NCBI GenBank assembly: GCA_020746105.1
Contig: CM036635.1
Coordinates: forward strand, 12,604,001 to 12,668,000
Direction of reading: 5' to 3'
Length of the DNA: 64,000 nucleotides
DNA from: Trogon surrucura
Taxonomy: Eukaryota > Chordata > Aves > Trogoniformes > Trogonidae
The notes under the pieces were generated by a model. The model searched no databases. It was not told where the DNA came from and saw only the letters and a list, made by a program, of their open reading frames with translations. The translations under genes were made by a program, and so were the position numbers. Positions 43,800-45,281 of this stretch are shown here, piece after piece (positions within the stretch are counted from its first letter, which is position 1; each line of letters starts with the position of its first letter).

Positions 43800-45281
43800 C
43801 TGCCCGGGGGGAAAAAGGGGTTAGAGTGACCGGGGAGGGGGGGTCCCGTCCTGCGTGCGTTTTGGTTCCCCACCCACATAAACCAGGGTTTGCATCTTCC
43901 CCCAAAGTGGCCAAGGGTGCTGCTGCCATCCTCCTTTGCCTCCTCCTCACTGCCCTTGGAGAGTTTTTAATTTTAAAATGAGCAGTGAGGGGAATTCCTT
44001 GGCATATTTTTTTAACAACGTCAGTAAAATTAATTAATGGGAAACTTCATTTCCACCAGAGCAGCCCTGTACTAGTTAGTCCTGCGAGAAGACTTGACGG
44101 TGAGTAGCTCCAAGGAGCCTCTCCTCATCCCCAGGCTCTGGCAGTGACTTTCCCAATGCACAAGCCGGGAAGAACAGGGACGGCTCTTACCTGGCTGAGC
44201 CTCTCCTGGTCCCAGAGGGAGCCGATGATGAATGCTACAAGCCGCCCTTCTTCAAACCAGCCAAGGGAGAGCTCCGGGCACAGGTTCAAAAAGTGACGGA
44301 TCTCATCGAGGTGGAGGGGACAGTCCCCGGAGACAGATATGAAGGCTGCAAGGGGACAGTGGTGAGCACAGCAAGTTTGACCGAGGACACCCACACCCAA
44401 AAAACACCCCAGCGCCGATGTAAGGGGGGAAAGGGACATAGGCAGGAGAGATGGCAAGTGTCCTGCCGCCTGCTTGGTCTGAAGGAGCTCTGAGGGGCAT
44501 CGATGGCTCCAGGGGACAGCTCTGCCCCTCCAGAAGCAGCAGCCCAAAGACTGGCTCCCTGCTCTTGTTGCTGATTCCCTGGCTACAGCAGCGGGTGCTG
44601 AGATGAACACTTCCTCCTGCCATCTCCGTGCCTGCCCTTGGGAGAGGAGAGAGAAATGGACTGGTGAGTCTGGCCAAGGGGAGCTGGGGGTGCCCTGGAT
44701 GGAGGAAGGGGGGAGGTTCCTGGGGATGCACCTCAACGTGCCCCCGTGTGATAGGAGACTGAGCACTGTGTCCTTCATCCCACCTTCCCCCTCTCCTGTC
44801 TGCTCGTCTCTGTTTTGGGAAAGCTGCTGGTCCTGCTCCGGCATCACCACAAACCCCCCCGGCCCTGGGCAGCTGGCTGGGCTGGGGGGACCGTGACTCT
44901 CCACCTCCTTAATCACAGCCTCCCCCACCTCGTTGAGGAGCCTGCGGTGGCCCAGCCAAAAGTCACCGCCTCTGGCTCCCTCCCTCGTCACCCAGTAGGG
45001 CATTGCATGGGCGTTGTGCCACCACGGCATGTCCCCAAGGAGCACAAGGGACTGGTGGAAGGAGGGGACAGGGCATCTCCGGCCGATGCCACCAGGCAGG
45101 ACCTCCCCAGGGCAGCCCCTTACCTTCCCGCTCGATCTCGAACACGCTGACAGCGTCCTCGGGGCTGAGGCAGCGGAACTCGCTGGCGGGCAGCGTGTGG
45201 CGGCGCTGGCCCCCCCGGCGAGCTTCGGGGGGACCTCAGGTGGGCAGGCTTCAGGAAGGGCAACGCGCCGAGCGCCAGCAT
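43494..45281 (-). CDS. AANAT: Serotonin (arylalkylamine) N-acetyltransferase, 3 exons, frame broken in exon 1
   Basis: AANAT acetylates serotonin with acetyl-CoA and sets the rhythm of melatonin synthesis in pineal gland and retina. The coding exons, in minus-strand order, are 45281-45124, 44345-44191 and 43799-43494. Visible features are the PKA/14-3-3 site RRHTLP (Thr29), the substrate-site segment [20 protein letters not shown], the catalytic histidines in HIHVLAVH, the acetyl-CoA loop RQQGKGS, the active-site Tyr in PFYQKCGF and the C-terminal PKA site RRNSGC. With one C fewer in the run at 45210-45216 the gene is 618 nt, exactly the 205 residues of chicken AANAT. As written, the ATG frame ([12 protein letters not shown]) and the RRHTLP frame differ. 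The gene lies convergent to RHBDF2, as in human. Confidence 0.93.
44191..44345 (-). CDS. AANAT: AANAT coding exon 2
   Basis: This 155 nt exon encodes [20 protein letters not shown] and on to [10 protein letters not shown], the arylalkylamine-binding part of the GNAT fold. The acceptor is TTGCAG before 44345 and the donor CCAG|GTAAGA at 44190. Confidence 0.95.
45124..45281 (-). CDS. AANAT: AANAT coding exon 1 (contains apparent +1 frameshift)
   Basis: The start at 45281 gives [15 protein letters not shown], homologous to the chicken N-terminus. The second half, from [20 protein letters not shown] to FEIERE, is read in another frame. The switch falls in a run of seven C (45210-45216). The donor is GAAG|GTAAGG at 45123. 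No in-frame ATG lies downstream until exon 3, so no simple restart rescues the protein. Confidence 0.9.

Follow-up and report, generated by a model that had tools for sequence, protein, structure and literature searches.

The window analysed here is a stretch of 64,000 nucleotides from Trogon surrucura (assembly GCA_020746105.1, contig CM036635.1, positions 12,604,001 to 12,668,000 of the forward strand). It carries the three coding exons of AANAT, the gene for serotonin N-acetyltransferase, on its minus strand and coding sequence of CYGB, RHBDF2 (iRhom2) and UBE2O on its plus strand; we take these three genes to adjoin AANAT in human too. The features are as follows.

45124..45281, minus strand: AANAT coding exon 1, 158 nt, GC content 72%, with the frame switch inside it
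45210..45216, minus strand: run of seven C on the plus strand (seven G on the coding strand), the meeting point of the two AANAT frames
44191..44345, minus strand: AANAT coding exon 2, 155 nt, free of stops in the second frame, located by tblastn with sheep AANAT (84.6% identity)
43494..43799, minus strand: AANAT coding exon 3 with the stop, 306 nt, open, matching Pfam Acetyltransf_1 (1.4e-07) and PDB 1kuv (1.1e-38)
33406..41030, plus strand: RHBDF2, with 17 exon cores placed by hand on single-frame matches by tblastn, a control for assembly accuracy
49..10877, plus strand: CYGB, three exons (the last at 10713-10877, its boundaries set by eye), a control
55010..55429, plus strand: UBE2O exon 1, with runs of eight C at 55041 and 55080 and one open frame from the ATG (55010) into the conserved part, a control

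The AANAT exons sum to 158 + 155 + 306 = 619 nt including the stop, which is 1 modulo 3, and as assembled no single open frame runs from start to stop. The ATG frame encodes AANAT over a stretch of 24 letters, beyond which the similarity is gone, and it meets a stop in exon 2 once 66 codons have been read, at 112 nt upstream of the last junction. A second frame, closed by a stop immediately 5' of 45235, takes over at a stretch of 12 letters; it encodes AANAT for 29 letters in exon 1 and continues in exon 2 and exon 3, where RRNSGC precedes the stop. The initial annotation had described two frames in exon 1 that lie one base apart and switch at a run of seven Cs, and this is what is found: positions 45210-45216 of the plus strand are exactly seven Cs with a G on either side, and the sheep alignments of the two frames meet there. 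The one-base break is thus confirmed as a genuine feature of the assembled sequence. That six Cs would give 618 nt, or 205 codons plus stop, holds as arithmetic, the sequence itself being 619 nt long; 205 residues is also what we take to be the length of chicken AANAT.

Place of the switch and state of the rest of AANAT

From the second-frame stop to the run of seven Cs neither frame is interrupted; the residues encoded there are RSPRSSPGG in the ATG frame and GPPEARRGG in the second frame. In the best alignment with sheep AANAT, the ATG frame ends at PG, immediately before the run, and the second frame begins at GGQRRH. Because the alignments end and begin around the seven-C run, it is the likely point of the switch, as judged from the encoded residues, rather than the run of six G at 45227. 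A shift at the six-G run was considered and rejected on a short stretch of support, namely the conserved SPG that the ATG frame encodes between the two runs, where the second frame has GPPEARR. It should be noted that the ATG-frame piece is itself short, with only 7 of its 14 aligned residues identical to sheep AANAT; it is presumably nearer to the chicken protein.

The remainder of the gene appears to be that of an ordinary enzyme. The second-frame protein (182 residues) aligns with residues 27-205 of sheep AANAT in PDB 1kuv at E=1.6e-89, a match that assigns it to AANAT by homology of the catalytic domain, and from its Q onwards it is identical to the sheep sequence at 130 of 181 positions. 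None of the 205 codons is a stop; 23 of them belong to the ATG frame and 182 to the second. At all four splice sites the junctions are canonical GT-AG (GAAG/GTAAGG, TTGCAG/CCT, CCAG/GTAAGA and GGGCAG/GAG). The residues that we take to be functional are as in the sheep sequence at 18 of 18 positions; amongst them are the catalytic His120, His122 and Tyr168, Pro64, the RQxGxG loop, and T31 and S205 of the two PKA/14-3-3 sites, which again are those of an AANAT. Across the coding sequence and its junctions, no second lesion was found in the splice sites, the 18 residues or the 205 codons. A pseudogene would be diagnosed by more than one inactivating change, or by one that reads or relatives confirm; one change was found within AANAT.

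Searches with parts of the gene add little to this. Of the four AANAT pieces submitted to Pfam, only exon 3 passed a cut-off; NCBIfam gave no match for AANAT exon 3 or for the last RHBDF2 exon, and no nucleotide sequence related to AANAT exon 3 was found in two contig collections (genome and viral). A second copy of AANAT in the window was sought by tblastn with the sheep protein and rejected, E values of 5e-12 or below being obtained for the present exons only and those of all other matches being 0.03 or above. Upstream, from the ATG to 46500, CACGTG does not occur; CANNTG is present at 46318, 46236, 45416 and 45370, and TAATC followed by C or T at 45962 and 45435.

Reading frames in the neighbouring genes

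The neighbouring genes serve as controls for the accuracy with which the window has been assembled. Their identity is supported by matches of the last RHBDF2 exon to iRhom2 in PDB 8snl (2.9e-79) and of UBE2O exon 1 to PDB 9mc4 (1.1e-34), whilst human proteins served as queries to locate CYGB and the remaining RHBDF2 exons. No frame break was found outside AANAT exon 1 in 3789 nt of coding sequence (CYGB 545, RHBDF2 2381, UBE2O 402 and AANAT exons 2-3 461), the control cores having been set by hand from single-frame matches such that weakly conserved edges lie outside them. One single-frame RHBDF2 match contains both a run of six C at 33469 and a run of six G at 33690. The two runs of eight C in UBE2O also keep the frame, although they lie amongst weakly conserved residues, so that this control is a moderate one. 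The window contains no N, and homopolymers of 14 and more are present in it. These observations count against a crude or generally poor assembly.

Some features of the controls are described in their own right. For 15 of the 16 RHBDF2 junctions a script returned a GT-AG pair of compatible phase, its picks at junctions 1-2, 4-5 and 6-7 probably being shortened rather than true sites. At the sixteenth, RHBDF2 exon 5/6 (35515-35894), the conserved reading (K/M), as judged by eye, needs a GC donor (AAG/GCAAGT) together with the acceptor CCAG/ATG, and this intron is probably GC-AG. For CYGB the script gave pairs at both junctions, the second being a poor pick; by eye, exon 3 is likely to start at 10713. 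This third exon (10713-10877) runs to a stop at a stretch of 14 letters, and the end of CYGB in the window is presumably shorter than the human C-terminus. Within UBE2O exon 1, a GGC/GGA-rich repeat at 55215-55292 encodes a glycine stretch of about 14 residues, which the human chain lacks when aligned in the PDB search. Two minisatellites also lie in the window, one at 51813-52012 with a 19-bp unit whose copy number varies between rows from 7 to 10, and one at 23957-24272 with about 18 copies of a 16-bp unit, which overlaps a row with an 81-bp period.

Technical error or loss of the enzyme

We consider it probable, with some confidence, that the break is an assembly or sequencing error in the homopolymer and that the gene is ordinary. 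According to this proposal, a false one-base length error would have entered the seven-C run in the GC-rich first coding exon, and the animal itself would most likely have an open AANAT frame and a working enzyme. We infer a technical cause because no other lesion was found and because published base rates favour it; both sides of the run, moreover, are still AANAT, each in its own frame. Amongst the base rates, a preprint (PMC13320880, in excerpt) finds that 2.2% of BUSCO genes carry frameshift errors in VGP genomes, against 4.9% elsewhere. Excerpts of PMC9516821 describe false indels in earlier assemblies of zebra finch and hummingbird as commoner where coding genes are GC-rich and 5'-proximal, with false insertions in a GC-rich 5'-proximal exon of zebra finch PCDH17; such indels were fewer in an Illumina-based hummingbird assembly, and fewer in Illumina-based and polished long-read assemblies. 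In a long-read draft of a woodpecker, homopolymer indels gave frameshifts in the mitogenome before polishing (PMC7263694, in excerpt). Since the window holds 46 runs of seven or more C or G, an occasional affected run is expected even at a small error rate per run.

A rough Bayesian sum, with assumed length factors and assumed real-loss rates of 0.001, 0.005 and 0.02 as its inputs, gave P(artefact) from 0.25 to 0.98; at the two lower rates the range was 0.57 to 0.98, and at 0.02 it was 0.25-0.71. The judgement of the initial annotation that a homopolymer miscall is the likeliest cause therefore stands as an inference favoured by the intact remainder and by the base rates, against which it must be set that the controls in the window, including the two UBE2O runs of eight C, keep their frame. 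It is mainly because these controls speak against a generally poor assembly that our confidence in an error is held where it is. The location in a homopolymer does not discriminate, because germline slippage prefers the same sites as machine slip.

A real null allele, whether fixed, common or segregating, is unlikely when all such cases are taken together. The first case, which we regard as rather less likely than the whole, is a recent germline slip that is fixed or common in the species, such that AANAT would be a young pseudogene whose mRNA undergoes nonsense-mediated decay (NMD), with no rhythmic serotonin N-acetyltransferase in the pineal or the retina. G runs do mutate by slippage. The break is present in the sequence, the neighbouring coding sequence is clean, longer C runs included, and a loss that is young may leave a gene with no second lesion. 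How young was estimated from a decay model that asks for a further disabling change at 95%, in which the neutral rate was set at 1.5-3e-9 per site per year and the indel ratio at 0.05-0.15: over this assumed range, a lesion-free remainder is 5% likely at 9.8-38 My and 50% likely at 2.3-8.8 My. An old AANAT pseudogene is thus unlikely and a young one possible. A real loss can show one lesion only, because cetaceans and colugos are each named in excerpts of PMC7613276 as having a single shared AANAT lesion, with raised dN/dS. Set against a loss in this bird are the absence of any further sign of decay in what was examined of AANAT, the lack of any avian AANAT loss in the titles and abstracts of open-licence literature among the matches listed, and the retention of intact melatonin genes by 13 of 13 crocodylians, which are thought to lack a pineal (PMC7613276, in excerpt).

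If the seven-C run is real, NMD of the transcript is predicted, since the stop of the ATG frame sits 112 nt upstream of the last junction and the usual criterion is a distance of 50-55 nt. A restart at a later ATG was considered and ruled out: the second frame, 190 residues long, has its first Met at index 122, which lies in exon 3 and past the active-site HIH. This agrees with the earlier statement that no in-frame ATG precedes exon 3. With the ATG frame ending in exon 2 and no Met ahead of HIH in the right frame, a full-length working enzyme would not be made from this start, and the claim that the bird would then lack one is supported by the reading frames.

Other forms of a real break are less probable still. 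A heterozygous or rare null allele might have been caught in the reference haplotype while the species retains a working AANAT; a single lesion in an otherwise intact gene fits this equally well, and we think it improbable. It is very improbable that a real break is bypassed by initiation at a near-cognate CTG at 45193. This codon is in the right frame and has an A at -3, and it would give a core enzyme whose start falls slightly within the crystallised core and which has no N-terminal PKA/14-3-3 site. Of the core chains, 1b6b aligns from residue 3 of the second-frame query (RRHT) and 1cjw from residue 5 (HTLP). However, scanning ribosomes would reach the ATG at 45281 first. Judged by codon phase, ribosomes that shift by -1 on the G run would not reach the right frame.

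If the break is technical, as we believe, automatic annotation could mark the AANAT of this species as lost or of low quality, and surveys of melatonin genes could record a loss that is not real. If the loss is real, a bird without AANAT would test the need for rhythmic melatonin in avian circadian and seasonal timing; were the allele also common, the loss would be recent (2-9 My at the 50% age, with the assumed rates), with the 14-3-3 sites and the catalytic core still intact in sequence. To our knowledge, no bird has lost the canonical melatonin-rhythm enzyme, and this one would be the first.

Comparison with known genes, pseudogenes and false frameshifts

The gene resembles vertebrate AANAT (sheep 1kuv and 1ib1) in its catalytic domain, in its catalytic and AcCoA residues and in both 14-3-3/PKA sites, and differs, as assembled, by one surplus base (modulo 3) in the seven-C run of exon 1. 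With the AANAT pseudogenes of xenarthrans, pangolins, cetaceans and colugos, as given in excerpts of PMC7613276, it shares a frame break or stop, and 1-bp indels in exon 1 are recorded there for armadillos and colugos. In contrast, the mammalian lesions are common to several species, and there are several per gene in xenarthrans and pangolins (two or more in sloth, anteater, armadillo and pangolin), whereas here there is one homopolymer change in one assembly; raised dN/dS accompanies the mammalian pseudogenes in those clades for which the excerpts give it. The false frameshifts that bird assemblies show in GC-rich 5' exons (PMC9516821, in excerpt), with zebra finch PCDH17 as an example, are like the present case in the GC-rich first coding exon, the small indel and the intact remainder of the gene. 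They were established by mapping reads and comparing a second assembly, whereas that of AANAT is a proposed one.
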